Source of the DNA: Asterias amurensis
Taxonomy: Eukaryota; Echinodermata; Asteroidea; Forcipulatida; Asteriidae
Reading direction: 5' to 3'
Assembly: GCF_032118995.1 (NCBI RefSeq)
Contig: NC_092656.1
Location: forward strand, 13,568,261-13,632,260
DNA length: 64,000 nt
A program made the position numbers and the translations under genes. The notes beneath the pieces are model-generated. The model did no database searches. It saw nothing but the letters and a program-made list of their open reading frames with translations, and had not been told where the DNA came from. Numbering within the stretch: the first letter of the stretch is position 1; each line of letters begins with the position of its first letter. This document shows, one piece after another, positions 6,226 to 64,000 of the stretch.

Positions 6226-6289
6226 TCATGGGCCCAGAGGAACATCACAGAAACCTGGACCAGTCACTGGTTCAGCCTGCAAACCACGC
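6226..6289 (-). CDS. Hexosaminidase exon 12 (C-terminus)
   Basis: It encodes [20 protein letters not shown] and a TGA stop. The last Cys corresponds to the conserved C-terminal disulfide Cys of the family (GFC). The acceptor is CCACTAG. The first base completes the Lys codon begun in exon 11. Confidence 0.9.
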
Positions 6290-9200
6290 CTAGTGGATGA
6301 GGAGAAAAAACATTTAAAAATTTACAGAGTTTTGTTTTCATTCTATGCTTTAAATTAAAACCACCTAAGTGCAACTGTCAGGAAACATTAGTGAACACAG
6401 AGTTGTGACTTTTCTGGTTTAATTTCAAAATCCTACTTTTAAATTTGTTTTCCTCCAAAGTCTGACCCTTTCTGATTTGTATCTTAAAATAAGCTAGTTT
6501 TGGTTTAATCACTTAACCAACCAATTCCGGATTAACATACCAGTGCTCTACCAACTGAGCTATCCAGCCCAATGGTGGTTTATTACTTGATATCTAAAAT
6601 AAGATGTGTACAACTCTGAAAAATTCTTAAATTTTTAAACAAAAAGCTGTGTCTAAAATTATAACCCTGTCTAAATGGATTTTTTTTTAATGGATGTGTG
6701 CGCATTGTTAGCCTCTTCAACCAGTCGTCAATACATACATTCTGTGGTAAATGCACTGAGTATTTTCCAGATTTGGTTAATGTAGTTTGCGGCTGGAAAT
6801 AAGTTAAGGCATATACCTTCGACCAGTGTGAAACTTTAAAAAGACTGCGTGTCCAACTCATGTGTGTGGAGAATCCAAAATGTTTGCAATCACCATCAAG
6901 TCTCAGATTATTTTTTATAAAAATGCTATGGTTGGTCTTGAAGATAAAAAAGAAAATTGTTAAGTAGGATTTGAAACTTTGCAAGAGACAAATAAAGTCT
7001 TACTTTAGCATCCTGCAGCGTTGCTCGGCTATTCTAGGAGCTGCTTTGCCAACATCATGAACAGTCTCTGCACTCCACAGTCTTTCTGCTACTGCACAAC
7101 CTCTTGGCCTACATGTATATACACATCACAAAAATAACATTATAGGCTGGTTGGAAGGAGGTCCACCTGATATAGTGTTTGACTAGTCACCATTTACCAA
7201 ATGCAGCCAACAAATCCTTCCAATTCATCGACACTTTTTGCTCTAAGGGATGCGTTGCCTTGAATTTTGCGATTTGGGCTTTAAAAAATGGGTCTTATTC
7301 AAAATAAAGTGAAATCGTATGACCGAAAAAGTGCTTTAAAAGTTGAATATAATAATTCACACAAGTATGCCTCGAAATTGAGTGGTTTTCCTCTTTTACT
7401 TTGTGAACAGCTCTCCATTGCTTGTTACCCAAGTTTTTATGCTAACAATTAATTTGAGTAATTATGAATAGTATCCAGTGCCTTTAAAGGATTCGGGTAC
7501 TTTTTCAAAATGTCCATAGATTTATATTAAACTTACAGGGTTTGAAGATATTGATAGTGGAAAGCTTCCCCTCAAATATTACTTACTGAGGTGCTGTAGT
7601 TTTGAGAAATGTGTAAAACAATGTCATGAAAATACCTTTGTAAATGCTTAAAATAATTTTCGTTTCATGAGACAAAAATTATTTTCATGACATTTACTCA
7701 TTACCCAAAAACTACAGCACCTCAGCACGTAGTATTTTTAGGGAAGCTTTCTACTACCATTATCTTCAAACTGTGTAAGTTTAGTGTAAATCTGTGGACA
7801 TTGTGTTTTTTGTCCCATAAAAAGTACATAGACCATTTAAAGCCATTATACACTTTCGGTAAACAGTATTGTTCAAGTCCCACACTTCGTGTATCACAAC
7901 TTATATATAAAATAACAATCCTGTGGAAATTTAGGCTCAATCGGACATCGGAGTCGGGAGAAAATAACGGGAAAACCCACTCCTGTTTTCGCGCGTTTCG
8001 CCGTGTCATGACATGTGTTTATAACAAATCCGTAATTCTCGTTAACGAGAATTTATATTGTTTTACCGTTTTCTCAAAAAGTAAAGCATTTCATGGACTA
8101 ATATTTCAAGAGAAGTCTTTCACCATTACCTTCTGTAAACCCTGTAAATTATTTGTAAATCTGTGAACTTTTTTTTTTTTCTCTGTACCGAAAGGGTCCA
8201 ATGGCTTTAACCCGAACCTGTAATTGCTTACCAGCTTCGCTGCATCAGATTGGTAGCATCAACATACTCTCCCCACATGCATGCTTCTCCACCAAACACC
8301 AAATCCTTCTGAGCTTGCGTACCTGTCAAATAAAACAATGACTTTATGTCAAGAAACATTTCTCTGATATATTGTCCAACAAAATTGTTTGGTAGTTTTG
8401 TGCAGTGATGCATGATAATTTCGTCCTCTTCTTTGATGAAATTGCAAACTTCTCAAAGTGCAATGCTAACTTTAACATTAGCAAAGTGAAAAAGGTTGCT
8501 ACAAACAACTTTTATCAGATAAAATACAGGCATTTTAAAGACACAGGACACTTTTGGTACTTGTCAAAGACAGTCTTCTCACTTGGTGTATGAACAAATA
8601 ACAAACCTGTGAAATCATGTACTCAATTGGTCGTCGAAGTTGCGAAACAATGGAAGAAAAAACACCCTTGTCACACGAAGTTGTGTGTTTTCAGATGCTT
8701 GATTTCGGTACCTCAAAATCTTACTCTGAGGTCTCAAAAATCAAATTCAAATATTTTGGTCGAAAATTACTTCTTTCTCGAAAACAACGTTGAGGGAACC
8801 GACTCTCAAATTGTTTATACTATCAACAGCTCTCCGTTGCTTGTTACCATGTAAGTTGGTATTACCAAAAGTGTCCACTGCCTTTAAACATGACTTTAAT
8901 GTGATAAAAAAGCCTGCACTTTACCGAGTTGCATGTGGTAAGCTTGAGTGTAATACAGGTTGCGAGCTTAGAAAGCTGAAGGTGTTGGGTTATAAGGCTG
9001 ATTAGATTAACAAGCAACTAGATAGTCAGAGTAGGATGAGGAAAATATTCTAGTTTCCAGACAACGGACAGAGTATCCTGACTGAAAAGTTGAGTCCATC
9101 AGCTCTTCTCAGAACCACCAATCACTCAAAAGAGATCTAACTATACTACTTGGTGTCACCGCAAATTTCTGATGTTATTGTCTTCCACCATGCAAACATT

Positions 9201-12200: not shown

Positions 12201-15200
12201 AGCTATGAAAAAAAGTGAGGACCTCATGAACTAAAAAATAAAATCAAAATAAATTTTGGCAACAAATTACCGGAAAATTTGTTTAACTAAAGATGAATTT
12301 CAAAAGGGTTTGATGAGTGGAGGCAAAAGCAGCCTGTGGACTTTAATCTTTTCTTTGTGTCTCTTTTACCGACAAAGTTCAAAGGTTGGGCTAAATAGAA
12401 ACTCTTCCAGTCCTGTCCATAGGGACTACCAGCGTAGTTCAGGTACCATGGAGTAGACAGCAAGGTTTTGTAGCCGAGTTTGGTGATTTTAGTCAGTTCT
12501 TGCTCCCAGGCCCCTTTCCAAACATTCACCACCGCTTCAGCTACGACCTTTGGAAATGTTAGTGCTGAAAGTTTAGGCAACTTATGGCAAAGTTATTCTG
12601 ATAGAGCCTTAGGTGAATGGATGCTTAATTTACCACTACCACATGTAGTAAGTAACACAAGACAAATCGTAATCATTTTTTTGGTCAGCCTTGTTTGAGA
12701 AGTAAAATTAATCATCCCATAATGAAGGCTAGGGCTCACAGTGAGGTAAATTACCGTGGTAGCTAGATTCCAAAATAATAAATAATAATAATAATAAGAC
12801 TTGTAATGCGCACATATCCACCCTGTTGCTTGGGTGTTCATAAGGCGAGGTAAAAAAAAAGAAAAAAGAAAAGAAAAAAACAGACACAACAAAATTAGTC
12901 CTTGAAAACCTGTGACATAAGATAACTTTTGAGAAGAGATTTGAATGTCGTGGTACAAAGACAAGATCTAAGATTAAGTGGTAGAGAGTTTCAGATTCGT
13001 GGTACAGCTGAAGAAAAAGACCTGTCACCCCATGAGTGTCGAGACTTACATGTAGGTTGCATGAGAAGAAGCATAACACATTTAGAATTTAGAAAAACAG
13101 CAACACCACAGCATGTCAGTTTGCTACATCAATAGTAGTGTTAGCTGGTACCTGCAGAATCACAACAAAAACAGCCACAGCTCAATTGGATTACCATTGA
13201 ATTTTAGTGGCTCTACGGAGTAAATGCTCCGCCAGTCTTGACCGAACCCACCAGCATCGGGCCTACTCAGGTACCAAGGAGTTGATATCAATGATTTATA
13301 ACCCTTCTGGGTGACTTTGAAAAGCTCCTTCTGCCATGGCGTCTTCCAAACATGGACCACTGTTTCAATACCGACCTTTGTGAAAAGCATGGGACATTAG
13401 TATTTTGATTCAAACTCAGCAATTTTAAGATCCGTCGCAAATTCTGTAAGCACAATAAAGCAGACAGTCAGAGGATGCCGCACATTCTGTTAAGCGGGAT
13501 TGGCAGAAACAAAAGCAGTTCAAGCGACAAAAAAAAGGAAACTGCTAGCAACGGAAAAATTACCTCCTAGAAAATCAGCAACATTTTCAAGAATGCTCTG
13601 ATGAGAAAATGGTCGTGTGACTTGGAATGTGTCATGTGTCATGTGTAAAACTTTGTTGGGCAATAAGTATGCTTGTTCGATATCACTATAGAGCTAAAAG
13701 CTATCGACAAAGCAGACCGTTAAGTTAGGGCTCATACACTGAGGAGAATTATTGTAGAATAAATTCTCTGATCCACAAATGATGAACAAGTACCCTGAAA
13801 ACAAAAAAACACATGCAATGGTGACAAACCCTAAAGTGCATTGGATTAAAAATAACACAGCAACACCACATAATGCTAGTTATTAGCTACATCAATAGTA
13901 GTGTTAGCAGGTACATGCAGTCACAACAAAAACAGCCAAAGCTCACTAGGATTACCATTGAATTTTAGCGGCTCTACAGAGTAAATGCTCCGCCAGTCTT
14001 GACGGTACGGACTAACACCTGCCGCATTCAGGTACCAAGGAGCTGATATCAAAGACTTATAACCCTTCTTGGTTACATTGAAGAGTTCTGACTGCCATGG
14101 CGTCTTCCAAACATGGACCACTGTTTCAATATCGACCTTGGTAAAAATCATGGGACATTAGTTTTCTGTTTAAAACTCAGAAATATTTTTATCTTGGCAA
14201 ATTCTGTAAGAGGAGTAAAGCAGCATAAGTTTAAAGGAACACAATGCCTTGGATCGGTCGAGTTAGTCTATAAAAAGCATTTGTAACCGTTTGTTATAAA
14301 ATGCATTTGCTTGAAAAGATGTTTTAGAAGTAGAATACCATGATCCAAACAAACTTGCCTCGAAATAACGTGGTTTTCCTTTTACGTCGCGAACTAACAC
14401 GGTCGGCCATTTATGGGAGTAAAATATTTGACTCCCATAAATGGCCGACCGTGTTAGTAGACGAAGTAAAAGGAAAACCGTTCAATTTGGAGGCATGTTT
14501 GTGTGGATCATTGTATTCTACTTTAACAACATCTTTCTACCCATATGCATTTTATAACAAACAGTTACAAACGCTTTTCTAAGACCAACTCGACCAATCC
14601 AAGGCAATGTGTTCCTTTAAGGATGCCACAAATTCTATAAGCGGAATAAAGCAGCAATAGTTCGAGGATGCCAAAAGCATTTTGAGCGACGACATTCACA
14701 AAACACTCTGTCAAAAGACACTGCTAGGAAAACTTTTCAATAATGCTCTCATAAAATTTTGTCAGGTAACTTGGAATGTGCCATGTGTAAAACTCGAGCA
14801 AGTACCTTGAAAACAAAAAAACACATGCAATGGTGACAAAACCGTACATGCAAGAATTAAGAAACACAGCGACAACACCGAATGCGTGTAAAGCCCGGTT
14901 AATACTTCCTGCGAATGCGAATGCGCTACGAATGTTGACATCACAAATTCGCAACAAATTATTCGCGGCAGTTCAACTTTGCTCAACTCACTTGCAAATA
15001 TCGCTGCGAAAGGAGGGTTGTGACGTCAAATTCTCGTCAAATTCTCTTCGCATTCGCATTCGCACGAAGTATGAACCGGGCTTACGCTACATCAAGAGTA
15101 ACGTTAGCTGGTGCCCACCACCCATGCACATGCAGAATCACAACAAAAACAGTCACAGCTCAATTGGATTACCATTGAATTTTAGTGGCTCTACGGAGTA

Positions 15201-18200
15201 AATGCTCCGCCAGTCTTGATTGTACGGACTAGCACCGGCCAAATTCAGGTACCAAGGAGTTGATATCAATGATTTATAACCCTTCTTGGTGACATTGAAG
15301 AGTTCTGACTGCCATGGCGTCTTCCAAACATGGACAACTGTTCCACTATCAACCTTTGTAAAAATCATGGGACATTAGCTTTCCTATCTAAAAGCAGAAT
15401 AAGGCAGCATGAATTTATGGATACCACAAATTCTGTAAGCGGAATGAAGCAGAAACAGTTTAAGGATGCCAAAACAATGCCAAAAGTAGGTCAAGCGACG
15501 ACACAACACTTTGAAACATGAAACTGCTGGCTAGTGAAAATTCACTTCCTAGAATATCAGAAAAAAAAATAATGAATACTCTCATGAAAAATAAGTCATT
15601 TGATTTGGAATGTGTCATGTGTAAACGTTCGTCGGGCAAAAGAATGCTTCATCCATATCACAGAAACCATTGACAAAAAACACAAGCAAATGGTCAAATT
15701 TCAAGTCTATTTGAAAACATAAACCCCAACCCATGATGAGTGGCCACTTGTTGTTTCCTCTTAAACACCAACGATAACCACCTTCAAAGTTATGCGGGTC
15801 CACAAGGTACTGGAGTTGCCACAGCTCCAAATAAGGATTTCTTGGGTAATTAAGGTACCATGGGGTAGACAGGAGAGCCTTGTACCCTAGCTCGGTCACC
15901 CTAGACAGGGTGTCGGTAAAACCTGGAGATTTCCAAACTTGAACTATCGTTCCTTCCTTCAACTGCCAAATAAAAGTTGAGGTTGTTATAATGATGATAG
16001 ACGGCACGTACATGCCATGCCACCCCACCCCCCCCCCCCCCCCCCCCCCCGCCCTCCCAACTTAAGGCGAATCTGGACTTGCGGAGTTAGTTTCAGAAGG
16101 TTAGCACAGGCTCAAGTCAACAAACAACTTTGGATTAAACAATTTAAACCACAATTGATATTTTGTGATATCTAAGGCTACATGTTTACTTGAATGTACA
16201 TACATGTATTTTAATTCTTCACAAAAGGTTGTACGTTAACCTTCTATAATACAAAACATCTTTAAGTATGAAGAACAAACTGAAAATTCATCTTTTTCCA
16301 TTGCAGGGCATTCTGTGCATTTTTTTTTTGAGGGGGGGGGTATTTTGTTGTGCGAGTGCCTTCTTGGGGTTCTAACATGTCTAAGGAAACAATGCGACAG
16401 CTCAGTGCTAACATTTTGACATTCTGGACAAAAAGTTCTTTTGTTTGGCCGAAGCCCACTGAATTGAACAATGTCTTTGGAATGTTTTCTACTTGGTGTT
16501 TATCTTGGTTTTAAAAGCCCTCCTGTGCAATCTGGAATGGTTTTCTCTGATATATTTTTTATGACATTATTCTCTAACCCAACTGCCTTTTAAGAAACAC
16601 TGAGTTTGTTGTTCCTACCTTTACTCCATTGTCTACGACCTCCTGCCAAACAAGAGGCTGCACCTTCAGCCCTTCCACAATATCCAGAAACCTCTGCTCA
16701 TAATAACCCTCCAGTTGCGAGTAATTCTGACCATAACCCATCTGAGTCATGAATGCTTGGATATCTTTGTTGCTCTTCCTAAACCAAACAAAACAAGACA
16801 AGGGTGTGAACAAAAATGTTTTCAGATGTATAAGTACAATTTCTTTACTTGGATAATAAACCAGACCTTGTTATAAAGGCAGCGGACACTATTGGTTATC
16901 ACTCAAAATAATTATTAGCATAAAACCTTACGAGGTAGCGAGTAATGGGGAGAGGTTGATAGTATAAAATGTTGTGAGAAACGGCTCCCTCTGAAGTGAC
17001 GTAGATTTCGAGAAAGAAGTAATTTTCCACGAATTTGATTTTGAGACCTCAGATTTAGAATTTGAGGTCTCGAAGTCAAGCATCTGAAAGCACACAACTT
17101 CCTGTGACAAGTGTTTTTTTCTTGTATTATTATCTTGCAACTTCGACAACAGAGCGAGCTCAAATTTTCACAGGTTTGTTATTTTATGCATACGTTGAGA
17201 TACACCAGGTGAGAAGACTGGTCTGACACAATTACCAATAGTGTCCAGTGTCTTTAACAGATGTTAACGCAAGGTCGTGGTTCAAATCCCACCCGAGTGA
17301 TACATGTATGCCTGTAGATATTTTTTACAGAACTTGGAAACACAGAGTATACAATTCTTAATAAACATCGGCTAAAAGCAAAGGTTACATGTACCTTTGG
17401 TATTTGAAACTGTTCCATTGTTTTAATCCTATATAAATGAAGATGTACATGTATACAAAGAACTAACATGTGACATTTCATTTCAAAAGGTGTCATTTTG
17501 AGATATCTCCCAAAATCCAAACGCAAATAATCACTAATACTAATACACAATCGGAGAAGCGTGAATGAAAAGTAACACCTCTCAGATTCACATTTGAGGG
17601 CACAAAAATTGATACCTTTTAACATAAACACATTACTTTGAACTGAAACACTTCTCAAAATGCTTTATACTATCGAAAGCTGCTGCAGAGCGATGTTTTC
17701 ACGAGAGTGGCGTAAATCTGTTGTTCACGATAAAATAATTTTTTGTGAAACTATTTTACTCATTTCTCAAAAATTTCATCACCTCAGCAAGAGATATTTT
17801 AAGGGAAATTCAGGCCTGTATGCTTCGTTTTTGAAAGGGCAAGGGCACTAAGGCGTTTTCTCTTTGGCAAAAGGCACCCTATGAGGAAGTTGTAAATTTC
17901 TACTGGAGCATTTCAAGGGCACCAAGGCAATGGCAAGGGGCAACGGATGCAATCTCCTCCGTTGCCTCCGTGAAGTATCGGGCTGGAAGTGAACATTTGT
18001 GTTGTGTGTCTTACAAAAAGTACCCAAACATGGCAAACCCTTTAAAGCCATTGGACCCTTTCGGTTCAGAAAAAAAATAAAAGTTCACAGATTTACAAAT
18101 AACTTACAGGGTTTAGAGAAGGCAATGGTGAAAGACTTGTCTTGAAATATTACTCCATGAAATGCTTTACTTTTGAGAAAACAGCAAAACAATAGAAATT

Positions 18201-21200
18201 CTCGTCACCAGAGAACTACAGATTTATTTTAAACACATGTCATGACACGGCGAAGCGCGCGGAAACAAGGGTGGGTTTTTTCATTGTTTTCTCCCGACTC
18301 CGATGACCGATTGAACCTAAATTTTCACAGGTTTGTTATTTGATATAGAAGTTGTGGTACACAAAGTGTGGGCCTTGGACAACACTGTTTACCGAAAGGG
18401 TCCAATGGCTTTAAACACACCACTCACCAGCAGGCAAAGTTAACTTCATCTCCTCCAAGATGAATATACTGATCGGGGAACACCGATGCAATCTCCTTAA
18501 AAAACTTGGCCAAGAAATCATAGGTTGAATTCAGCATGGGGTTAACAGGGCCGTAGGAACCGGTGGGTTTCCCTGTCTTATCTGCACAGGGGGTCAAGAG
18601 GTTAGGCACGGAGCCCCAAGACTGAGTGTGACCTGGTGTGTCAAACTCCGGGATGACTCGTATTCCACGATCTCGTGCATAGTTGATGACATTTAAGACG
18701 TCTTGCTGACTGTAGACATAAGATGACATGAATGCTCCCTGAAACACATATAAATATATTTACTCAATACTGCACAACAAACAAGATTAAAGATAGGATT
18801 TGAGGCGTTGCATGGTGAGGTATCAATATTTGGTTTGCGGTAACACCATGTGTGTATCTACTTGCAAGGTAGATTTTGTTCTTAGAGAACTGTCTTTCTT
18901 TATTCTACTACCGCGGAGTAGATTTATCAGATGTTCGGGAGACTTCTCAGTTCTGAAAAAAACTGTCCTGCTTTAGATTAAAGATCCTGACAAGAATTAG
19001 CATTTTGAATAATTGAGTAGAAAGACTCGTTTGTACTCATTTTATCAAAGTTCCAGCTAGACTGATTATTGTATTGTGCAGTGCAAGATTAAGTTGATTT
19101 TAATAATAATAACAGAACCTAAAGGATTTGGGTACCTTTTCAAAATGTCCACACATTTACATTAAACTTACAGGGTTTGAAGATAATGATAGTGGAAAGC
19201 TTCCTTTCAAATATTACTTACTGAGGTGCTGTAGTTTTAAAACAATGTCATGAAAATATGTTTGAAAATGCTTAAAATAATTTTCGTCTCATGAGACGAA
19301 AATTATTTGCATGACATTTCCCAAAAACTACAGCACCTCAGCACCTCAGCACCTCAATATTTTCAGGGAAGCTTTCTACTATCATTATCTTCAAACTGTG
19401 TAGTTTAGTGTAAATCTGTGGACATTGTGTTTTTTGTCCTACAAATGACAAAAGTTACATTCACCCTTTAACCAAAGATTTGTTTCTGTATTTTCTTGGA
19501 AAACTGTTCATTTTTCCATTTTGATTAAATGAGAGCAGAGAATAATTTTGACAGTGTGAATGTAGTTGATTTTCTACAAGTTACAACTCCACTGCTATTT
19601 TACACCCAACAGAAACTCGAAGAGCTCCCTCTTGTGGTCGATAATAAACTTTAAAGTACAGGTCCCAGTGACAGATGTTACATACAACATGGTATTTTAG
19701 CTGGTAATTCCTTATTCTGATAAGTATAACTTTTCTGCTAGCAACTATTTTGTGCTGCAAACCCTTTCAGTGTCCGCATTTCATTGCGTTCTGAGCCTAA
19801 TGAGCTTAGCTTTTTTAGGGGTTTTCAAAATTCTGCATCACAAAACTGTTTTGAAAGGTTTTTCACATCCAACAAAATGCAACTTGCTGATTCATGTTTC
19901 TTAGCATTCCAAAAGTCAATCATTTTTCCATTGCTAGAGTGATAATGTCCTCTCGTTATAACATAATATTATGGTTCGTACATGTGCTATTGATGACACT
20001 TTTTGAGTACATAAAATAAATCATACATTTTCGATAATGGCGCATTTTGAGTACACAAAAATGTATGATACTTGTAGGAACTTGGCACTGAAAGAGTTAA
20101 GCAGCTCTATTAAAACATTCCTCAATGATTAAAGGCAGTGGACACTATTGGTAATTGCTCAAAATAATTGTTTGCATAAAAACTTACTTGGTACCCAGTA
20201 ATGGTGAGATGATGATAGTATAAAACATGGTGAGAAACGGCTCCCTCTCAAGCACAAAGTTTTAAAGAAGAAGTAGTTTCTCACTTAAAGATTTGATTTG
20301 AATTGCAGACCTCAGCTGAGGTCTTGAATTCAAGCATCTGAAAGCACACAACTTGTGCGACAAGAGTCTTTTTTCTTCCATTTTGTCTGGCAACTTAAAA
20401 TTGAGTTCAAACTTTTACAGATTTGTTATTTTATGTATATGTTAAGATACACCAAGTGAGAAGACAGGTCTTTGACAATTACCAGAGGTGCCCAGCGCCT
20501 TTAAACTAGGCCCTGGCTCTTTAACAAAAATAACGTTACCTTTTCACTCATGTAGGGGAATGTAGTGCTTTCATACGGGAAAGACTGATCATCGACGATA
20601 TGCCAGTGAAATACATTCATCTTGTTGTACGCCATCGCATCCTTTAAATTTAAAGAAGACACAAAGATACACGTAAGTAACAACTCTGGATAATGCCAAA
20701 GCAAGACATATAGTTAAACTTCCAATTTAAACAACTATAAAAAAATGTATCAACCTTTTGCTATGGACAGAAATTGCAGAAAATGTGTCACTTTAATACC
20801 AAGCTAGCTAAGGGATAACAAAATATAGTTACAGGCTGGACAGTCAAAATAGCTTCCTTGGGCATTAAAAGAATTTAACTTGTAGTTCCCAAGGAGAACC
20901 AAATACATCTGGGCTATAACAGTTGAAGGGAGCTATCCATTTCAGGAGATTCCGAGTTTGGCTACAGAATTGGTGGAAACACAAATCGTGAAGACCACAG
21001 ATTAACATTTAAAACTTACACGGTCTACAGATGATGATAGTTGAAAACATCCTGAAATGTCATATTTGATGAGAAATAAATAATCTAACTTCGCATTTGG
21101 AATTCATCCCTCAGTGAGCACTTGACTCATTTTTATTTTGGCATTAAGCAAAGCAAAATTTGTTAACTGTTTTTCACTATTCTCTCGTGACCCAGATGGC

Positions 21201-24200
21201 CGATCAATCTCAAACTTCTACAGGTTTGTCAGGTTTACATAATATGGTGAATTGCAGTAAGTGCTTACACTGCCAGCAACTGTTTAGTTAGCCAATTCTG
21301 TAATGTTCCTTTAAGTGAGTCTGTTATATTCCCATTAGCAGTTAATCTGTCTGGACAACATTGGCTTGTTCATGATCTATTTAAAAGATTAAAGTCCACT
21401 ATTTGAAAAAGGAATTACATGGAGATAATAAAGGGTACTAAAGTTGGTTTAACTCATGGTTCAACTCCATCGAGTTCAACTCTGTGTGTCTGGACGGATC
21501 TAAAGTTAGTCCGAATTCAGTTCAATCCACAAAAGATAAACCGTCCAGGGAGGGGGTTTATCTTTAGACCGCTTCGGGTTTATCTTTTAACACTGTGTGT
21601 GGACAGAATAAAAAAGACCACATCCGGTTTAACTCACAACAGACGACCCATTGACCTCCGTAATCATTACGTAAACACACGGTGACCAATGAACAGGCCA
21701 ATAAACAGGATGTTAGAGTAACAGGGTCGCGTTTTTTCTTGACCTCTTAAAACCAAAGATAAACCGGATCGGGTTTAACTCAGTGCTGTCTGAACGCAAA
21801 GGGGTTTTATTTTTACGATCACCCCCTGCTGCTCGTAAAAGTTAAACCGGTTCGGGTCTAACTTAGTACGCTTTCTGAACATACCCAGAGTGTGATAATT
21901 TGTTAGCATGAAAAAGCATGTATTCTTATGGTCTGTTATCTAATGGAGCTCTTCTGTACATTCATGGTACAACAGTATTACAGTCTAGTCTAGTACACTG
22001 GGCATAATTACAGATGTGAACTTAAGCGGCCCTCAGGTCGACCTACAATTTTCTTACGCACGCAACAAACCGTCGGAAACGCGCAGACAAAATATGCTCA
22101 GGTCACAACAACTGAGAAATCATGAACCCACAATTGGTTACTGACAGTCGGGATCACGTTGTACAGGTTGAAATTGTTCTACTCTTGCGACTGCTAAGTT
22201 TTTCAAGCGATGACTTTTTAAGATTGTCTTAAAACGGAAACCATCGCAGTTACACTCAGGTTGTAAATAATCGGCGACTGAAAAGTTCCCGAATGGTCTT
22301 AGCTCAGGCGCAGTGTAATTTTGAAAAGTAAGTCGCCGTCTGTTTCTTGTCGACGCAAGGTCGACCTGAGGCCGGCTTTAGTAAACAGCCAAAATAGGCA
22401 GTTGCCTGTGATGGTAAATGGATTGGTGAGAATTCAGTGCTCAGTCATAAAATCATATTATTTCCTTCAACAACATTGATTGGATCAATTTTCTAAAGCA
22501 TTATGAATGCAGGGGCGCTTTCACATAGAGCTAAGATTGATAGCCTAGTAGCTGTGGGTTCGAATCCCACCCGAGTGATATGCCTGTGATATTTTTTCAC
22601 AGGACTCAGGAAAGTACTGAGTATACAGTGCTAACACACATCGGTGTATGGGTAAAAACCAAAATAAATATAGCTGTAAATCAATCGTAGATGCTTGGTA
22701 AAATGTGATGTAACAATGCAAATCACTATACATGTAGTAATACTGACAAATTTTCTTACGATGGATGTTATTGCTTTGTGAAATCAACCCCAGGTGCATT
22801 TACTTCCTTGAAACCTTGTATTCAATTGAATAAGATGATAAAATCTCATACCAAGAACTGGAGAAGTTTTCCGACTGGTAGAAAATGCCTCGATGAATCC
22901 ACCAGATATCCACGATGAGCAAAGCGTGGAAAGTCCACAATGCTGGTCTTGTTCACAACCAACTAATGACAAACAAAAAACATTGTTTTTGTATGTGGGA
23001 TTTGAGGCATAGACCTTTATCCTGGTGCAGCCATCTTGAATTGTGTTCATTGATATCGATGAAACCAAACCGAGGCTGGAAGAACAAAATAGTCTGGTTC
23101 CAATTTGAAAAATGATTATTTGCATTCATTGTCATTATTCGAAACAAGGAACATGACCAAGATGGAGGCAGCATGATAAAGGTCTTTTGCATGGTGAGAT
23201 ATCAATCTACAGTTGGTTTGCAGTATCACCATGTGTGTTTCTACTTGCTAGGTAGATTAATGTTCTTTTGAGAATTTGTCTTGCTTCATATTCTACTACC
23301 GCAGAGTAGATTTTTGGAATTCAAGAGACTTCTCAGCTCTGAAAGGAACTGCCTTTTAACTACTAAATGGGCTGAAGGTCGAATGTAGGCAGGGACTACC
23401 CTCGAAGGAAAATAGTTTGGATAATTTTTCACCCAAATCATTTCAACCTGAGAAAGGATTTTAAATGCATTGATTTCTGAGGGTTGGTGTCCCTTTGGCA
23501 ATGCTGCGGCCATCAACTTAACTGGGATCCACTGTCACCTCGCTAAATGTGGAATTATTTTACGTTTGTGAAGATGACTTAGGCAGTGGACACTATTGGT
23601 AATTACTCAAAATAATTATTAGGATAAAACCTTACTTGAAAACGAGTAACGGGAGAAGTGGATAGTATAAAACATTGTGAGAAACGACTCCCTCTGAAGT
23701 GATGTAGTTTTCGAGAAAGAAGTAATTCTCCAGGAATTTGATTTTGAGACCTCAGAATAAGCACTAAACTTCGTCTGACAAGGGTATTCTTTCATTATTA
23801 TCTCGCAACTTCGCAACCAATTTAGCTCAAATTTTCACAGATTTGTTATTTTATGCAAATGTTGGGATACATCAAATGAAAATACTGGTCTTTGACAATT
23901 AACAATGGTGTCCGGTGCCTTTTAACGTCATAATGATTGCTCTGCAAAAAGCAAACTCTTACCGATCCTGCTGATTGGTACACAATCTGGCTGAACGTTT
24001 CCAAGCCTGTTAAAGAAACACACCATGAACATGGGAGCAATTAATACAAAGTTTGTTGGTTGTAAGCTCATAATCTCAAACTCTGAGGAAATGTCTTAAA
24101 GGGAACTCAAAGGTTTGGTAATCACTCTGAAAATTAATGGCAATAAATACTTAATTGATTAGTACGGCAGGTTTTGATAGTATAAAGTATTTTTGAGATT

Positions 24201-27200
24201 TATTTCTGTTTTTTGTGATTATGAAAAAATATTAAAGTTTTTATTACAAAAATTTTAATCTGAGAAGCTATACTGACAATAAGGTTTCTCAGACTAAGTA
24301 ATCAATGACGGATTATTCTTCCGGCTTGAAAATAACCGCTCCGGCTTTTCAGCTATATCAAAAATGCAACCAAAAATGCAAAAACTTTTTACATGAAACC
24401 TTCACGAGTTAGTTTTATTTTATGAAGCTGTATTATTGTCAGAATTTAATCTCATGGACACATCAGAATTTAGAATCTCCCTCTTCAGTAGTTGTGAGTT
24501 TATCAAAAGTTTACTGTACCTCTTGAATATTTATCAGTATACAATTGTTGCACGCTGTGACGGGATCTATGGAGTTTTGTACACTTCGCCTCGGGTACAG
24601 TTTGCCACCGAGGGTGTACAAAACCCATGGACCCCAGTCACAACGTGCAACAATTGTTTTGTAAAATTGGTATTCCTCTTTTCAAAGTTATGTTGTCATC
24701 TTCAAATATTATTACGACAGAATATAGTTTAATAAGCAGACAAACAGTTCAAATAAGAAAAAAATATTCACTGTTCCCTCCAAATCGAACCCGAGGTGTT
24801 TCTACACAGCGATGGAAATCAACCAACGGTGGGAACGATCAAAGTGATGTACACCATGTACATCACTTTTCATGTTACTCGACCCTGAAAGCCATGTACA
24901 TGTAACACGCGTTTTTGTATCACATCACGTGATTGGTTCTTGACCAATAGAACTTCACAATTTGTTACCGAGGTTTAACAATATTTAGTATTTGTAAAAA
25001 AGACCAAACTTGGTGAAGGTTAGAGAGAAGTGTTTATGTTAAACTAGTAACTTTTTTCTATATGTATTTCTGGTGTAATTTGTCTGTAATTATTTGATTT
25101 TGTGTAGAAGTCTTTCAGTCATGAGTGCCTTGCGGGGTAAGCTGTGACATAAAGTAGGACTTAAAAATCAAAGTGTTCCAAAAACATCAATTTAAAGACA
25201 CTGGACACTATTGCTAACTGTCAAAGACAACTCTTTTCACTTGGTGTATCTCAACATGCATAAAATAACAAACTTGTAAAAATTTGAGCTCAATCGGTCA
25301 TCGAAGTTGCGAGACAATAATGAAAGAGAAAAACACCCTTGTCAAACAAGTAGTGTGCTTGATTTCAAAACCTAAAATTCTAAATCTGAGGTCTCGAAAT
25401 CAAATTCGTGGAAAATTACTTCTTTCTCAAAAACTATGTTACTTCAGAGGGAGCCGTTTCTCACAATGTTTTATACCATCAACCTCTCCCCATTACTTGT
25501 CACCAAGAAAGGTTTTATGCCAATAATTATTTTGAGTAATTACCAATAGTGTCCAATGCCTTTTAGAACCAATGGTTTTGTACACCATTTGTTTTACAAT
25601 ACCTCTTAATGCTCCCCATGCTGAGTGTGCTGTCAGCACAGCATCATTTCCACCAACTTCCAATGTGTCTGTGGATTAAGTAAAAAACATAAACTGTAAT
25701 GTCCATCTTCCTCTCACAAAAAGCTGTCAACATTAAACTTTAGGGTGCATTGGTGGGTCAAAACAGTGTTGAAATGAATAAATAAAAACACTTTTAAACA
25801 CTCTGATTATCCTGAATGGTCGCTTAAAAATAATGTTCTTCTGACAGAGACCCAAGCAGAAGCATGACAAATAGGCACCTCAGAAAGGGGGGGTTTCAAT
25901 CCTAGCTCAACTGAGACCTCAAAACCTTGAGAGTACGGATGAGGGACTTCCAGTGGTATAAAAAAAAGTGTCTCTTCATAAACTGATCAGGCCATTTAAA
26001 ATGTGTGCTTTTTGCACGATTTAGTGAAAGTCTAATAGATGTTAGTTTTGCATCAGCGATAAAGAATACAATTTGGTTTTACCCTTTAGCACAACATGTA
26101 TCAAGCAGTGTATACTTTGTACTTTCCTAGGGTCTTTGAAAAAAGCACAGGCAAATCACTTGGGCGGGATTGAACCCTCGATCTTTGCTTTGCTAGAGCA
26201 GGGCCCAATTTCATGGCTCTGCTTACCGCCGAATTCTGCGCTTACAATCACGATTCCCCACTTACGTGCAAGCGCCAAATTTCTGCGCTAGCCTTGTAAG
26301 CGTAGAATGCCTAGTAACGTTGAGTACGCACGAGCAGAAGCCCAAATTCGCCCCTAACCCGTGAAATACGCTTGCCGTAAGCACAGAATTCCCTGCTTCC
26401 GTAAGCGCCGATTCTGTGCTTACGGTAAGCAGAGCCATGAAATTGGGCCCTGATGTCTTACCACTGGACCACCAAGCTAGCCCAGTAGCTAGAGGCAGCT
26501 TGAATCCTATGTATAAGCAGCCAGTACCGCTGAAAGTCCCAAACCATTTGCATTTTGCATTTCCATTTGCATTGGTCTTAAAATTCCAAAACTCTTTTAG
26601 ACCTCTTTTTATTTTATTCTTTATACTCACAGTTTTCTAAGGACTCGAGTGAAGGGTAGAGCTCACTGCAGTCAGTGATGCTGACTGCAAGACCTGTCAG
26701 AGGAAGAGGGGCCTCATCAGTAACTTCTTGTTTCTTCTCACTCTGCTTGGCCAATGGCTTAGGCAGTTGAGAAAAGACGATTTCTTTATAGCGAACTAAT
26801 GCTTGAGCCAAGACTGGGCAAGATACAGCTGTTTTCTGGTAGAATCTGCAGAAGAATTAAAGGTCAAACTTAGAGTTAGATAAAGCCGGTTAAAAAAGAT
26901 TTGTTAAATTTTCATCACTCAAGATTGGGGGGAGTGGTTGGGAGGGGACAGTACATTTTTTGTATTTTTTAATTTTTACTTAAATGAAAATTGTCGGTCG
27001 CAGATCAGCAGTTCGTTGATCCAGTAAGCTGGTACCCACGTGTATAGCGCTTGGTGACCCAAAAATTACGCACTGAACATATTGAGAAGTCAAAAAACGT
27101 GCAGTGTGACAAAAAGCAACAGTTAGTACCAGGTAATTTTTTTTATTTATTTAACTCAACAAAAAGGCAAAGCAAGCACTATGGATGAATATTGTGTGTG

Positions 27201-27823
27201 GGGGAACGTTTGATTGTGGAGTATATAAAGGAAACTGAAGTTATTGATGGCAAACAGATTGTAAAATATGATTGTAAAATATTCACCTATCAACGAAGAT
27301 TTTGAAAATGTATAGCGTTAACATGGTTAAGGACGCCCAAAATGTTAGACCCCTATTTTGCTCATGGGCGGGGAGAGCTTTATAGTTTCTAGAAGTAAAT
27401 AATGGTCAGACCATGAAGGTAAAAGGAAGGAGGGAAAACATCTAATCTAATTGGGTAATCGTGCCACGCACTTTTTCACAAATTTTTACAAAAATTGAAC
27501 GTCTCATTGAGTCATTTGAGTAAAAGTGATGGCAGGATACGCAAACTTTTTCGAATATATTAAAATTAGTAGTACACTACTGGCTCCCAACATCTCTAAA
27601 CAAACCTAAAAGATTTCTGATCTTCCAATGTGTAAATATCTGGTGTTGTGATGAGCGTTTGTGGCATTGGCCAAGGTGAGCCGACCGATTGCTGTTGATG
27701 TTGCAGGCGGTTCGTGTCGATCGGTTGCTGACCACTGCAAGTTACTTCTTCTGTCATCTGGCGATTTCCATGAACATTCATCATAAACATCCCTAAAGTA
27801 GCTACAATAAGGGCAACCGACAT
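6226..27823 (-). CDS. HEXA/HEXB-like: Beta-hexosaminidase (GH20), whole gene, 12 exon positions
   Basis: This enzyme hydrolyses terminal beta-linked N-acetylhexosamine from glycolipids, glycoproteins and glycosaminoglycan fragments, normally in the lysosome. Using one exon-9 variant, the CDS is 1668 nt (555 residues), close to human HEXA/HEXB. Residues 1-19 look like a signal peptide. Residues about 45-170 form the GH20 N-terminal domain, and 190-535 form the catalytic barrel. Visible signatures are [16 protein letters not shown], the HWHIVDD strand, [12 protein letters not shown], the catalytic Asp349-Glu350 in HLGGDEV, VWQEV, PWYL and [12 protein letters not shown]. All junctions are GT-AG and frame-consistent. 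Exon positions match the human family pattern. Position 9 is present five times in tandem, and a second first exon lies upstream at 34249-34454. The orthology is with the HEXA/HEXB group; which of the two cannot be decided here. Confidence 0.95.
6515..6576 (-). repeat. tRNA-like fragment (SINE head or tRNA pseudogene)
   Basis: The minus strand reads GGGCTGGATAGCTCAGTTGG followed by TAGAGCACTGG, a good tRNA D-arm and A box. The anticodon and T arms do not follow, and no GGTTCGAATCC B box is present. It is therefore not a functional tRNA gene. Confidence 0.55.
7004..7108 (-). CDS. Hexosaminidase exon 11
   Basis: It encodes the [12 protein letters not shown] segment (the family consensus is [12 protein letters not shown]) and continues to QRCRMLK. 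The acceptor is CATGTAG and the donor GTAAGA. The exon enters and leaves in phase 2. Confidence 0.93.
7355..7483 (-). mobile_element. Chimeric MITE remnant (B fragment joined to A end)
   Basis: It begins with a family B motif (ATGCCTCGAAATTG-like) and continues as a family A right end. Its TTAA at 7484-7487 is shared with the next element. Confidence 0.6.
7488..7836. mobile_element. MITE family C, full length
   Basis: Family C starts TTAA-AGGATTCGGGTAC, has inverted arms GGTGCTGTAGTTTT / AAAACTACAGCACC around a TCATGAGAC core, and ends near a TTAA. Here it shares TTAA with a neighbour on each side (7484-7487 and 7837-7840). Confidence 0.88.
7841..8206 (+). mobile_element. MITE family D, full length
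   Basis: Family D ends are TTAA-AGCCATTGGACACTTTCGG and its inverse, with a core palindrome AATTCTCGTTAACGAGAATT. The right TTAA (8207-8210) lies 21 nt inside the intron after the exon 10 donor. Confidence 0.88.
8232..8322 (-). CDS. Hexosaminidase exon 10
   Basis: It encodes [16 protein letters not shown] and then ATNLMQRSW. In human HEXA the matching Trp and Glu (W460, E462) line the sugar-binding pocket. The acceptor is TTTGACAG and the donor GTAAGC. It must be joined to an exon ending in phase 1, as all five exon-9 variants do. Confidence 0.95.
8539..8883 (-). mobile_element. MITE family A, full length
   Basis: It is flanked by TTAA at 8535-8538 and 8884-8887. The left terminus is diverged (ACACAGGACACTTTTGG). 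Confidence 0.85.
9334..9625. repeat. Foldback repeat with AGCCCTTTTCACACT ends
   Basis: The left end AAAAGCCCTTTTCACACTG is mirrored at the right end as AGTGTGAAAAGAGCT. The interior is GC-rich (CCCTGGGG motifs). It resembles a MITE. The flanks 8890-9330 and 9630-10250 hold nothing recognised. Confidence 0.65.
10255..10505 (-). mobile_element. tRNA-derived SINE
   Basis: On the minus strand a tRNA-like head has AGTTGGTAAGACACTGC as A box and GGGTTCAAATCCCACCC as B box. It is followed by a shared body (CACAGGACTCGGGAAAGTAC-type) and a tail containing GCATCGGGGATAAAGAAT. Confidence 0.8.
10545..10745 (+). mobile_element. tRNA-derived SINE, inverted partner
   Basis: It is the same SINE family as the copy just before it but in the opposite orientation. 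Its B box is degraded to GGGTACTAATCCC. The two form an inverted pair separated by about 40 bp. Confidence 0.75.
11326..11705 (+). mobile_element. MITE family A
   Basis: The left TTAA is at 11322-11325. The right end is degraded (GTCTTTGAGC). The internal GAGACCTCA palindrome is intact. Confidence 0.87.
12370..12547 (-). CDS. Hexosaminidase alternative exon 9e (most 3')
   Basis: It is the fifth version of exon 9 and lies nearest exon 10. At 178 nt it is one codon shorter than the others. It encodes [13 protein letters not shown], then [18 protein letters not shown] and QPLNFVG. The acceptor is CCAAAG and the donor GTAAAAG. It enters in phase 0 and leaves in phase 1, like the other four. The loop after PWYL reads NYAGSPYG. 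It is the most diverged of the four downstream copies, so it is an older duplicate. Confidence 0.9.
12779..13135 (-). mobile_element. SINE/LINE tail with (TTA)n 3' end
   Basis: The minus strand ends in GTGCGCATTACAAGTC followed by a TTATTATTA microsatellite, a common 3' tail in metazoan non-LTR elements and SINEs. The body at 12940-13080 reads as an interspersed repeat. It lies in the intron between exons 9d and 9e. Confidence 0.5.
13195..13375 (-). CDS. Hexosaminidase alternative exon 9d
   Basis: The exon is 181 nt and encodes [36 protein letters not shown] and EPLKFNG. It matches 9b and 9c except in the loop after PWYL, where the usual Asn is Ser and is followed by Arg (SRPDAGGFG). The acceptor is CAAAG and the donor GGTAATCC. 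Its flanking intron sequence is shared with 9b and 9c, so the duplicated unit includes intron. Confidence 0.92.
13956..14136 (-). CDS. Hexosaminidase alternative exon 9c
   Basis: The exon is 181 nt and encodes [37 protein letters not shown] and EPLKFNG. The acceptor is CCAAG and the donor GGTAATCC. The loop is NAAGVSPYR. Confidence 0.93.
14235..14616. mobile_element. MITE family B, full length
   Basis: Family B ends are TTAA-AGGAACAC..TTGGATCGG and its inverse. It has a long near-perfect hairpin centred on CTCCCATAAATGGCCGACCG. TTAA lies at 14231-14234 and 14617-14620. It sits in the intron between exons 9b and 9c. Confidence 0.9.
14890..15085. repeat. Foldback repeat with AAGCCCGGTT ends
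   Basis: The left arm AAGCCCGGTTAATACTTCC plus GCGAATGCGAATGCG is mirrored at the right by CGCATTCGCATTCGCACG and ATGAACCGGGCTTA. It lies in the 9b-9c intron. Confidence 0.75.
15173..15353 (-). CDS. Hexosaminidase alternative exon 9b
   Basis: The exon is 181 nt and encodes [37 protein letters not shown] and EPLKFNG. The acceptor is TTACAAAG and the donor GGTAATCC. The loop NLAGASPYN differs from 9c at four positions, while the flanking helix and strand are nearly identical. Confidence 0.93.
15782..15962 (-). CDS. Hexosaminidase alternative exon 9a (most 5')
   Basis: The exon is 181 nt and encodes [37 protein letters not shown] and VDPHNFEG. Its start (TIVQVW) is closest to the human exon (TIIQVW). 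It is the most divergent from 9b-9d in the helix. The acceptor is ATTTGGCAG and the donor GTGGTT. A run of about 25 C lies roughly 65 nt upstream in the intron. Confidence 0.93.
16029..16051. repeat. Poly-C tract
   Basis: A homopolymer run in the intron upstream of exon 9a. Its exact length is probably unreliable in any assembly. Confidence 0.8.
16619..16778 (-). CDS. Hexosaminidase exon 8
   Basis: It encodes [18 protein letters not shown] and then [18 protein letters not shown] is a conserved GH20 strand whose Trp contacts the sugar. It enters in phase 2 (completing Trp356), leaves in phase 0, and is the common upstream partner for all exon-9 variants. The donor is GTAGGA. Confidence 0.95.
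16877..17253 (+). mobile_element. MITE family A, full length
   Basis: The left flank is ATAA instead of TTAA. The right TTAA is at 17254-17257. Confidence 0.88.
17268..17375 (+). mobile_element. tRNA-derived SINE, partial
   Basis: The B box reads GGTTCAAATCCCACCCGAGT, followed by the family body. The tRNA 5' half is missing. Confidence 0.6.
17638..17800. repeat. Family G repeat fragment
   Basis: The ATGCTTTATACTATC..AAAGCTGCTG block also occurs at the start of both sulfotransferase duplication units (41690 and 53225). Confidence 0.5.
18045..18410 (-). mobile_element. MITE family D, preceded by a family C end
   Basis: A family C right-end fragment (about 17985-18040) shares the TTAA at 18041-18044 with this element. 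The other TTAA (18411-18414) is only 13 nt past the exon 7 donor. Confidence 0.87.
18428..18738 (-). CDS. Hexosaminidase exon 7 (catalytic Asp-Glu)
   Basis: It encodes residues 253-356. [12 protein letters not shown] carries the conserved His, [16 protein letters not shown] follows, and [12 protein letters not shown] holds catalytic Asp349 and Glu350 (human HEXA D322/E323). The acceptor is GTTTCAG and the donor a consensus GTGAGT. The exon is 311 nt and leaves in phase 2. Confidence 0.97.
19120..19471. mobile_element. MITE family C
   Basis: Both arms are present. The right arm contains a triplicated CAGCACCTC motif. Nothing else is recognised in the 18740-20130 intron. Confidence 0.82.
20133..20500 (+). 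mobile_element. MITE family A, full length
   Basis: TTAA lies at 20129-20132 and 20501-20504, the latter 35 nt past the exon 6 donor. Confidence 0.88.
20540..20641 (-). CDS. Hexosaminidase exon 6
   Basis: It encodes 34 codons from [20 protein letters not shown] to FPYMSEK. HWHIVDD is a hallmark GH20 strand. It is phase 0 at both ends. The acceptor is TTTAAAG and the donor GTAACG. Confidence 0.96.
20995..21312 (+). mobile_element. MITE family E
   Basis: It contains GATGATGATAGTTGAAAAC and TCTCAAACTTCTACAGG, and ends TGTAATGTTCCTTTAA. Confidence 0.65.
21428..21895. repeat. Repeat with scattered AAACCGG / CCGGTTTAA motifs
   Basis: GGTTTAACTCA, TTTATCTTTTAAC and AAACCGG motifs recur in both orientations, as in a decayed foldback element. 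Boundaries are uncertain. Confidence 0.4.
22023..22380. repeat. Foldback repeat with CCTCAGGTCGACCT ends
   Basis: The left end TAAGCGGCCCTCAGGTCGAC is mirrored by the right end GGTCGACCTGAGGCCGGCTT. It is MITE-like and has no ORF. Confidence 0.75.
22540..22690 (+). mobile_element. tRNA-derived SINE, partial
   Basis: The B box is GGGTTCGAATCCCACCCGAG, followed by the body with GGACTCAGGAAAGTACTGAG. The A-box half is lost. Confidence 0.7.
22852..22962 (-). CDS. Hexosaminidase exon 5
   Basis: It encodes [20 protein letters not shown] and then [17 protein letters not shown]. The Arg of HRG and the start of the barrel are family-conserved. It is phase 0 at both ends. The acceptor is GTCATTAG and the donor GTATGA. 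Confidence 0.95.
23581..23921 (+). mobile_element. MITE family A, diverged
   Basis: The right TTAA (23922-23925) is 37 nt past the exon 4 donor. Part of the central palindrome is deleted. Confidence 0.83.
23963..24006 (-). CDS. Hexosaminidase exon 4
   Basis: A 44-nt microexon encoding [15 protein letters not shown] (the family consensus is GLETFSQL). The acceptor is TTTAACAG and the donor GTAAGA. Confidence 0.95.
24540..24662. repeat. Hairpin repeat
   Basis: AACAATTGTTGCACGCTGTG pairs with CACAACGTGCAACAATTGTT, and inner arms GGAGTTTTGTACAC / GTGTACAAAACCC extend the stem. The surrounding intron at 24060-25190 holds no other recognised feature. Confidence 0.7.
25196..25563 (-). mobile_element. 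MITE family A
   Basis: The left TTAA is at 25192-25195. The right end lies about 39 nt past the exon 3 donor. Confidence 0.87.
25603..25668 (-). CDS. Hexosaminidase exon 3
   Basis: It encodes [20 protein letters not shown] then RG, the end of the N-terminal domain (human TVWGALRG). The acceptor is AATCCACAG and the donor GTATTG. Confidence 0.93.
26040..26510 (-). mobile_element. tRNA-derived SINE interrupted by a hairpin element
   Basis: The body (GCATCAGCGATAAAGAATAC) and B box (GGGATTGAACCCTCG on plus) lie left of the insertion. The A-box part (GTCTTACCACTGGACC on plus) lies right of it. Confidence 0.72.
26201..26450. mobile_element. Foldback element nested in the SINE
   Basis: The left end GGGCCCAATTTCATGGCTCT is mirrored by AGAGCCATGAAATTGGGCCC. 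The interior carries GCGCTTAC/GTAAGCGC motifs in both orientations. A partial relative lies near 37390. Confidence 0.82.
26631..26845 (-). CDS. Hexosaminidase exon 2
   Basis: It encodes [20 protein letters not shown] through to the YPSLESLEN segment of the GH20 N-terminal domain. The linker ([18 protein letters not shown]) matches the variable stretch where the human subunits differ most. The acceptor is TTCTGCAG and the donor a consensus GTGAGT. Confidence 0.93.
27606..27823 (-). CDS. Hexosaminidase exon 1 (signal peptide)
   Basis: It starts at [19 protein letters not shown], a good signal peptide, and continues to [11 protein letters not shown] and DQKSFRF. PWPMPQ matches the mature N-terminus of the family (LWPWPQ). 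The donor is AG|GTTTGT, phase 2. No in-frame upstream ATG extends it. Confidence 0.9.
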
Positions 27824-34248: not shown

Positions 34249-34454
34249 CGGAATGAACTCTGATCTGTGAGTTTGCAAGTCACTGGTGTCGTTGTGATAA
34301 CTTGTGGCATTGGCCATGGTGAGCCAACCGACTGCGGCTGTACAGCCTTTCCAAATGATGGGTCAAACGAGTTAAGCTGAATGTTACCATCAACACTAGA
34401 AAGCATCACAATAATGACAAGTCCATAAAGTATTGACGACATTTTGAGTTGCAC
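34249..34454 (-). CDS. Alternative or orphan hexosaminidase first exon
   Basis: It encodes a second signal-peptide exon: MSSILYGLVIIVMLSSVDG (with an earlier ATG four codons before), then [11 protein letters not shown] and DQSSFR. It shares [10 protein letters not shown], the ITTP stretch and the DQxSFR end with exon 1. The donor CG|GTATGT is also phase 2, so it can splice to exon 2 in frame. It lies 6.4 kb upstream of exon 1. It could be an alternative promoter and first exon, or a remnant of a duplicated gene. No other hexosaminidase exon is seen nearby. Confidence 0.82.
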
Positions 34455-34748: not shown

Positions 34749-35420
34749 TATGGTGGCCCCGAAGGGACATCGCATAACGCAAACGTGTGCGCACACGTGT
34801 GCAATGTCGTGAAACAAATCGCGAATATGTGCGCACACGTACGCAATCTCGTGAACCAAATCGTGAATATGTGCGCACACGTATGCAATTTCGTGAACCA
34901 AATCGTGAATATGTGCGCACACGAGTGCGATTTGTTTTGCAATGTCGTGAATTTTATTGCATACCATGTTGCATACCATTAGAATGATGTCATAGTTGTG
35001 GATAATTTGTTACCGATCTAGGGAGTACTGTGGCGCTACAGCAGGCTCCCTCTGTAAAGCATGTGTATACCCAGGAACTTGGCACCAGGCCAAGGACGAC
35101 CACACGCCTCGCTTGCCTCACAACAAAGACTACTGCTGCAATGACTACCGCTTATCTCACTGTTGGAAAGAAACCCCCCAGATCATTAGACATTTTATTC
35201 AAAGGTATGCAACATGGTATGCAATAAAATTCACGACATTGCAAAACAAATCGCACATATTCACGATTTGGTTCACGAAATTGCATACGTGTGCGCACAT
35301 ATTCACGATTTAGTTCACGAGATTGCGTACGTGTGCGCACATATTCGCGATTTGTTTCACGACATTGCATACGTATGCGCACACGTTTGCGATATGCGAT
35401 TTCCCTCCAGGGCCACCATA
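34749..35420. mobile_element. Foldback element 2, same family as element 1
   Basis: It has the same ends and centre as the element at 31642, but its arms hold only three to four 42-bp units each. The flanks GGGAAG and GTGAAG look like a 6-bp target duplication with one mismatch. Confidence 0.87.
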
Positions 35421-63942: not shown

Positions 63943-64000
63943 CTGTCATTTATAGGAAGGGTGAACATTGGTTACAACTTACAAAGTATATTTTCTGAAA

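Follow-up and report, generated by a model that had tools for sequence, protein, structure and literature searches.

The analyzed window, a 64,000-nt stretch of the Asterias amurensis genome (NC_092656.1, positions 13,568,261 to 13,632,260), carries on its minus strand a GH20 beta-hexosaminidase gene of 12 exons, with exon 9 present as five homologous tandem copies. The alternative first coding exon at 34249..34442, located by tblastn and exact match, is used by NCBI isoform X1 (P0001), and the other first coding exon, at 27606..27823, was recognized by its reading frame and donor and is absent from the database proteins of this species that were seen. Exons 2 (26631..26845), 3 (25603..25668), 4 (23963..24006), 5 (22852..22962), 6 (20540..20641), and 8 (16619..16778, ending in phase 0), as well as exons 10 (8232..8322, entered in phase 1), 11 (7004..7108), and 12 (6226..6289, carrying the stop codon), were assigned from the spliced gene model and the match to P0001; exon 7 (18428..18738), which encodes the catalytic Asp-Glu, was assigned from these and from residue conservation. 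In direct sequence comparison, the gene model that combines the first exon at 34249..34442 with exon 9 copy b equals P0001 in every letter, and P0001 contains the GH20 catalytic domain (PF00728, E 4.4e-93) and its N-terminal partner domain (PF14845, E 1.5e-18). The solved structures nearest to a 282-aa piece that includes copy e are those of human HEXB and HEXA (5bro, 1.8e-103; 1nou, 1.6e-102; 2gjx, 3e-101). On sequence grounds, the gene product is a GH20 lysosomal-type beta-hexosaminidase of the HEXA/HEXB type.

Exon 9 copies a (15782..15962), b (15173..15353), c (13956..14136), d (13195..13375), and e (12370..12547) lie exactly where the preliminary description had placed them, each with an open frame 0 between a flanking AG on the 5' side and a flanking GT on the 3' side; their lengths (181 nt for a to d, 178 nt for e), their entry and exit phases (0 and 1), and the junction sites of the neighbouring exons (donor of exon 8 at 16619, acceptor of exon 10 at 8322) are likewise as described there. 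All five were assigned by splice sites, homology, and frame, and copy e also by its position in the tree. Copy b is the version used in P0001 and the only one seen in an annotated Asterias protein; no database protein was seen with copy a, c, or d, and none of this species with copy e. Inspection of the five copies revealed no stop, frameshift, or lost splice site. When each copy served as a tblastn query on the whole window (cut-off E 10), the hits were the five copies, all with E 7e-12 or lower, and no others with E under 0.5; in similar searches exons 7, 8, 10, and 11 each came up a single time, the next best match having E 0.18 or higher.

Any single copy yields a protein of 555 aa (554 aa for copy e) with one terminal stop, and all 10 ordered pairs of copies run into a stop at most 4 codons into the second copy, which bears out the earlier claims that two joined copies shift the frame and that a full-length protein accommodates only one. 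The premature stops of the 10 pairs precede the last exon junction by 363-372 nt, and exon 9 skipping in the spliced gene model leads to a stop at codon 435. Each mature mRNA would take a single exon 9 copy, and transcripts with zero or two copies, being out of frame, would be lost to nonsense-mediated decay. Among relatives on short contigs, 33 of 34 proteins have exactly one exon 9 copy; the 34th (P0006), a transcript-like relative on a 2253-nt contig, has none and terminates one residue past exon 8. An exon length of 1 mod 3 limits each protein to a single copy, but this length may not have arisen to that end: the identical switch borders of mollusc and fish isoforms make it probable that it came down from an ancestral exon with phases 0/1. 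The mutually exclusive splicing proposed at the outset fits the gene structure, the frame logic, the selection pattern, and the same-border isoforms elsewhere, although copy b is the only version seen in an annotated protein of Asterias.

Among all GT and AG dinucleotides of the gene, donors of the copies fall between the 91st and 95th percentiles and acceptors between the 79th and 93rd, both inside what the constitutive sites span (49-99 for donors, 29-98 for acceptors), a small reference set of 11 donors and 10 acceptors. The gaps between successive copies (428, 1036, 580, and 647 nt) make steric exclusion unlikely, given the minimum length of an intron. Control by RNA docking is known for only some mutually exclusive arrays. 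When intron 8 and both 800-nt ends of the intron following copy e were scanned against the 200 nt before or after each of the five exons, one of six comparisons surpassed all 15 of its shuffles, owing to a G run at 16028-16050; this run was not counted as a docking site, because any pyrimidine tract can pair with it and it sits inside copy a's own target.

HEXA is the Tay-Sachs gene and HEXB the Sandhoff gene; the difference in the substrates they accept has been traced to a few pocket residues. According to the alignment, exon 9 contains the residue pair distinguishing human HEXB (D452-L453) from HEXA (N-R, 423-424; anionic substrates). To obtain recognition of anionic substrates, human HEXB was given the change 'DL 452-453 NR' (PMC13198282, in part), and the roles of Arg424 and Asp452 are also treated in PMC8162980 (in part). 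Across 46 sequences, catalytic D341 and E342 are invariant and W411 and Y436 are at least 90% conserved, and all five starfish copies keep the VW and WYL motifs. Each copy retains the pocket Trp and Tyr (W424 and Y450 of HEXB) and brings its own version of the loop that follows barrel strand 7, with the pair on which acceptance of anionic substrates depends in human HEXA/HEXB. This pair reads N-Y in copies a and e, N-L in b, N-A in c, and S-R in d, so that the HEXA-type Asn-Arg is found in none of the five aligned copies, and N-R was rejected as a rule for starfish. Transfer of specificity from human to starfish is uncertain, since Arg occupies the HEXA position in copy d only, preceded by Ser, and the starfish loops exceed the human one by 2-3 residues. 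Because the pocket aromatics stay while the loop and the specificity pair change, exon choice may let one gene make enzymes that differ in substrate range and perhaps in dimer partners. We consider it quite probable that this is one GH20 gene with five interchangeable exon 9 versions, one per mRNA, whose choice gives forms differing in substrate range.

Database isoforms that are 100% identical outside exon 9 and 50-67% identical inside it were found in the clam Mya (four variants) and the scallop Pecten (two), and HEXB isoforms of the same kind in Labeo, Cyprinus, Danio (zebrafish), Triplophysa dalaica, and Lates japonicus; isoforms named X1 and X2 are automated predictions. The switch is confined to residues 410-468 in all nine mapped pairs (two of them starfish models), and in fish HEXB it exchanges N-R and D-x, as in the change engineered in human HEXB for therapy. 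Since the pocket exon has alternative versions in starfish, clam, scallop, and several fish, its splicing probably alters which substrates the enzyme cleaves. Differential splicing of hexb, of whatever event type, is described for a reef fish during a heatwave (PMC8933327, in part). The earlier statement that no such array had been described for HEXA/HEXB stands for the literature, where a limited search found none, but unremarked mollusc and fish isoforms were already present in RefSeq/UniProt.

In the tree, Patiria isoform X1 joins copies b, c, and d (UFBoot 100), and Acanthaster isoform X2 joins copy e (97). The AU test rejects an Asterias-only origin (p 0.021 for b-e, p 0.001 for a-e), whereas none of the constrained trees is rejected by the SH test (p 0.068 and 0.165 for the two Asterias-only trees). 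In view of the grouping with Patiria and Acanthaster exons, the two starfish exon classes appear to predate Asterias. A protein search limited to copy a's exon returned 11 candidate relatives, none at E 0.001. The chances seem even that a hexosaminidase barrel unit (strand 6, helix 6, strand 7, and loop) became a splicing cassette resetting substrate choice repeatedly and at least partly independently, giving both beta-type (D-x) and alpha-type (N-R) subunits from fish HEXB and five pockets in starfish, whose products might pair as heterodimers in a HEXA/HEXB division of labour achieved by splicing.

Copies b, c, and d are young (86-91% nucleotide identity), and copies a and e are older (45-63% amino acid identity to other copies). 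All nine loop codons vary in amino acid among b, c, and d, compared with 7/51 in the rest of the exon (Fisher p 7.7e-7, with loop boundaries chosen post hoc, after data inspection; window scan p 1.5e-4). The nonsynonymous rate in the loop exceeds the synonymous rate of the exon for b-d (p 0.0015) and c-d (p 0.014), with no significant acceleration for b-c (p 0.47), so positive selection in the loop is unsupported as a statement about every pair; tests within the loop alone gave p 0.053 (b-d), 0.15, and 0.56. These copies do not differ after QDW and vary chiefly in the pocket loop, which speaks against the alternative in which mutually exclusive use holds but adjusts how the enzyme dimerizes, how stable it is, or how it is trafficked instead of its substrate range, as does the fish pair, which toggles the specificity residues themselves. 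We regard this alternative as rather unlikely, while noting that exon 9 also encodes the post-loop stretch, that copies a, b-d, and e differ there, and that this stretch coincides with positions changed in the engineered HexM, including alpha P429Q, KD432-433RK, and I436K (PMC11698352, in part), which by count fall inside exon 9 and may lie at the dimer interface.

Less probable still is that one or two starfish copies are used and the remainder are spare or decaying duplicates without a role. Such decay would suit the young age of b, c, and d and the appearance of copy b alone in a database protein, but every copy is intact, dN/dS outside the loop among b, c, and d is 0.10-0.36, the exons are more conserved than their intron flanks (67-79% of aligned sites), and the b/c/d and e classes have annotated counterparts in the Patiria and Acanthaster isoforms. 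It is very improbable that the array mainly throttles the gene via unproductive double or skipped mRNA, with copy identity mattering little: all pairs and the skip do lead to premature stops far upstream of the last junction, but the loop-concentrated amino acid change and the conserved fish N-R and D-x forms would be left unexplained. An assembly artefact, with collapsed alleles or paralogous genes mimicking an exon array, is hardly credible, for although the similarity of b, c, and d could confuse short reads, the chromosome assembly is based on HiFi and Hi-C data (PMC10625585, in part), the divergence between copies is 9-14% and that between their introns is higher, the flanking exons are single in the window, copy e as DNA occurs at a single place in the genome, and the NCBI annotation has the same locus structure.

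Under the preferred reading, the pocket residues appear to be varied by splicing, in five versions in starfish and as a beta-type/alpha-type pair in HEXB of fish, including zebrafish. Zebrafish is a model used for Tay-Sachs and Sandhoff diseases. If the reading is true, an enzyme engineered for therapy has a natural counterpart in fish, residual activity may not be the same in zebrafish as in mouse models, and exon 9 is a natural library for GH20 substrate choice; it would also add an enzyme-pocket case of mutually exclusive exons across several phyla. A similar system is formed by coq-2 exons 6a/6e of helminths, annelids, and molluscs, in which an alternative exon remodels the enzyme core and changes the product (PMC7434440, in part), whereas coq-2 is another enzyme with two exons in place of five, and its function was tested by exon deletion, that of the starfish array being read from sequence. 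Human tandem duplicated exon substitutions belong to the same splice-event class, being ancient and convergent between vertebrates and invertebrates (PMC9741552, in part); the word hexosaminidase is absent from the main text of that paper. Human HEXA and HEXB share the protein family and the residue pair in play (N-R vs D-L), but are two genes, with 14 exons each in vertebrates (PMC2492878, in part), whereas starfish vary the site within one gene. The engineered modHEXB, human HEXB with DL452-453NR meant to recognize anionic substrates (PMC13198282, in part), was designed, whereas fish HEXB isoforms appear to give N-R by splicing. The structure 5bro, listed as HEXB, reads N-R at this pair.

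A single beta-hexosaminidase gene spans the window from 34442 to 6226 on the minus strand and comprises two alternative first coding exons, seven single exons (exons 2–8), five copies of exon 9, and exons 10–12. The exon-9 copies reported in the preliminary description are confirmed by the gene model built here and are located, all on the minus strand, at 15782–15962 (copy a), 15173–15353 (b), 13956–14136 (c), 13195–13375 (d), and 12370–12547 (e). The model with the first coding exon at 34249–34442 and copy b is matched letter for letter by the NCBI Asterias amurensis protein beta-hexosaminidase subunit alpha-like isoform X1 (P0001, the representative of 13 member sequences); models with copies a, c, d, or e differ from it. 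The two first coding exons (34249–34442 and 27606–27823, minus strand) lie about 6.4 kb apart and share 68% identity across the final 31 codons. Arrays of a 42-bp minisatellite, open in several frames and present in both orientations, surround the alternative first exon (31679–31942, 32273–32498, 34786–34923, and 35230–35383). The published Asterias amurensis genome comprises 491.53 Mb and 22 chromosomes (HiFi/Hi-C; PMC10625585).

Exon 8 ends in phase 0, and entry into exon 10 is in phase 1. The protein with a single exon-9 copy has 555 aa (554 aa with copy e). Skipping of exon 9 leads to a stop at codon 435, and all ordered pairs of copies (10/10) lead to a stop at most 4 codons into the second copy, 363–372 nt upstream of the last junction; thus, the earlier claim that only one copy can be used per full-length protein holds. 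Nonsense-mediated decay would be expected for stops so far upstream of the last junction. Most likely, each mRNA takes one exon-9 copy, a choice that the frame, and presumably also decay, would enforce at the protein level. Mutually exclusive splicing, as originally proposed, is supported by this frame logic and by isoforms with the same borders in molluscs and teleosts. Steric exclusion between copies is unlikely, since neighboring copies are separated by 428, 1036, 580, and 647 nt. The splice-site scores of the copies fall within the range of the constitutive sites of the same gene. The scan for an RNA docking element yielded a G homopolymer and nothing beyond it; a 23-nt G run is located on the sense strand at 16028–16050, about 65 nt upstream of the acceptor of copy a.

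P0001 contains Pfam GH20 domains, and its AlphaFold2 model (46-sequence alignment) has a mean pLDDT of 85.9 and a pTM of 0.87. Exon 9 encodes residues 402–461, modeled as a strand (407–410), a helix (415–424), a second strand (428–431), and a loop located in a block of lower confidence (441–450, mean pLDDT 68); by count of barrel strands, the two strands would be strands 6 and 7. Alignment to full-length human HEXB (3lmy) places W424, Y450, D452, L453, and W460 inside exon 9. Y450 and D452 are reported to touch inhibitors in HEXB docking work (PMC6499197), 6-sulfate binding is described as allowed by human alpha Arg424 and hindered by beta Asp452 (PMC8162980), and the DL 452–453 NR change was made in human HEXB for anionic substrate recognition (PMC13198282). 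The corresponding residue pair is N-Y in copies a and e, N-L in b, N-A in c, and S-R in d, and the starfish loops are 2–3 residues longer than the human loop. We infer that the choice of exon 9 may switch the substrate. The stretch right after the loop overlaps alpha positions 429–436, which are altered in HexM (PMC11698352), and might have a role in dimer pairing.

Exon 9 appears to be swapped in other animals as well, as seen among the best 120 of 5241 matched relatives and among 117 fish proteins (27 belonging to those 120 and 90 new, without P0094, P0100, and P0112 of the fish search). Isoforms labeled X1 or X2 in these sets are predictions made automatically. Four Mya arenaria variants (P0029, P0050, P0058, and P0063) are identical over 492 aa outside exon 9 and differ inside it; a fifth form (P0028), 99% identical outside exon 9, may represent another allele or locus. 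Among the matches listed, Pecten maximus has two forms that likewise differ only inside exon 9. Within the fish set, isoform pairs of this type were found in Danio rerio, Labeo rohita, Cyprinus carpio, Triplophysa dalaica, and Lates japonicus, each with the alpha-type N-R in one form and the beta-type D-x in the other. With differences before residue 60 disregarded, the switch falls within residues 410–468 in all mapped pairs (9/9, including two starfish models). The 1-mod-3 exon length is not peculiar to starfish, and mollusc and fish isoforms share the switch borders. A single exon-9 copy is present in 33 of the 34 proteins from short, transcript-like contigs; the 34th (P0006) stops one residue past exon 8 and is excluded from that count. 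The motif occurs twice in 15 of 210 proteins, 33–77 residues apart in 13 (11 fish, Mya P0025, and Holothuria P0012) and 512 and 315 residues apart in P0003 and P0009. We read the 13 close-spaced doubles as annotation merging neighboring exons; all fish doubles (11/11) have D-x followed by N-R. Holothuria leucospilota P0012 merges two different copies, N-Y and S-Q, the second type being present in Apostichopus isoform X1. The D-x/N-R alternative exon pair of fish HEXB (P0109/P0123 and others, zebrafish included) is, apart from starfish, relevant to GM2 disease models.

Inter-copy tblastn E-values range from 7e-12 to 3e-36. Judged by its sequence, the five-copy array is a product of neither chance nor decay. 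Copies b, c, and d are recent duplicates, introns included, with 86–91% identity in exons vs. 67–79% of aligned sites in flanks. Their dN/dS outside the loop is 0.10–0.36. Amino acid differences affect all loop codons between WYL and QDW (9/9) vs. 7/51 elsewhere (Fisher p 7.7e-7, with loop bounds drawn after the data were seen; all-window scan p 1.5e-4). Nonsynonymous change in the loop exceeds synonymous change in the exon for b–d (p 0.0015) and c–d (p 0.014), the excess for b–c not being significant (p 0.47); tests restricted to the loop gave p 0.053 (b–d), 0.15, and 0.56.

In a tree of 40 hand-picked exon peptides (about 60 residues, deep nodes weak), b/c/d group with Patiria isoform X1 (UFBoot 100) and copy e with Acanthaster isoform X2 (UFBoot 97), the X1/X2 isoforms being automated predictions; copy a, on a long branch, is unplaced. 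The AU test rejects an Asterias-only origin of a–e (p 0.001) and b–e (p 0.021), is compatible with an asteroid-wide clade (0.39) and a Mya-only clade (0.72), and is marginal for fish-only (0.082) and holothurian-only (0.053) clades; the SH test rejects none of these constrained trees. By these groupings and AU tests, two starfish exon classes appear to predate the divergence of Asterias, Patiria, and Acanthaster, with later amplification of b/c/d, and the starfish and Mya arrays look independent.

No description of mutually exclusive exons in HEXA/HEXB was found among the best-matching open-licence literature on hexosaminidase/hexb splicing, an absence that is no proof. Neither "isoform" nor "splice" occurs in a zebrafish hexb mutant paper (PMC6772114), a study of GH20 evolution describes vertebrate genes of 14 exons and used the longest isoforms (PMC2492878), and hexb is listed as differentially spliced in one fish RNA-seq heatwave study (PMC8933327). 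The main new content is exon 9 as a splicing cassette also in molluscs and teleosts, together with the proposed substrate switch.

Elsewhere in the window, two long open frames with Sulfotransfer_2 (PF03567) and NAAP repeats neighbor the hexosaminidase gene (45876–47561 and 58037–59275, plus strand). A tRNA match (Rfam, 40.8 bits), perhaps part of a SINE, lies inside the intron after copy e (10419–10490, minus strand), and a Neugrin-like open frame (PF06413, E 2.3e-30) occupies 63090–63971 on the minus strand.
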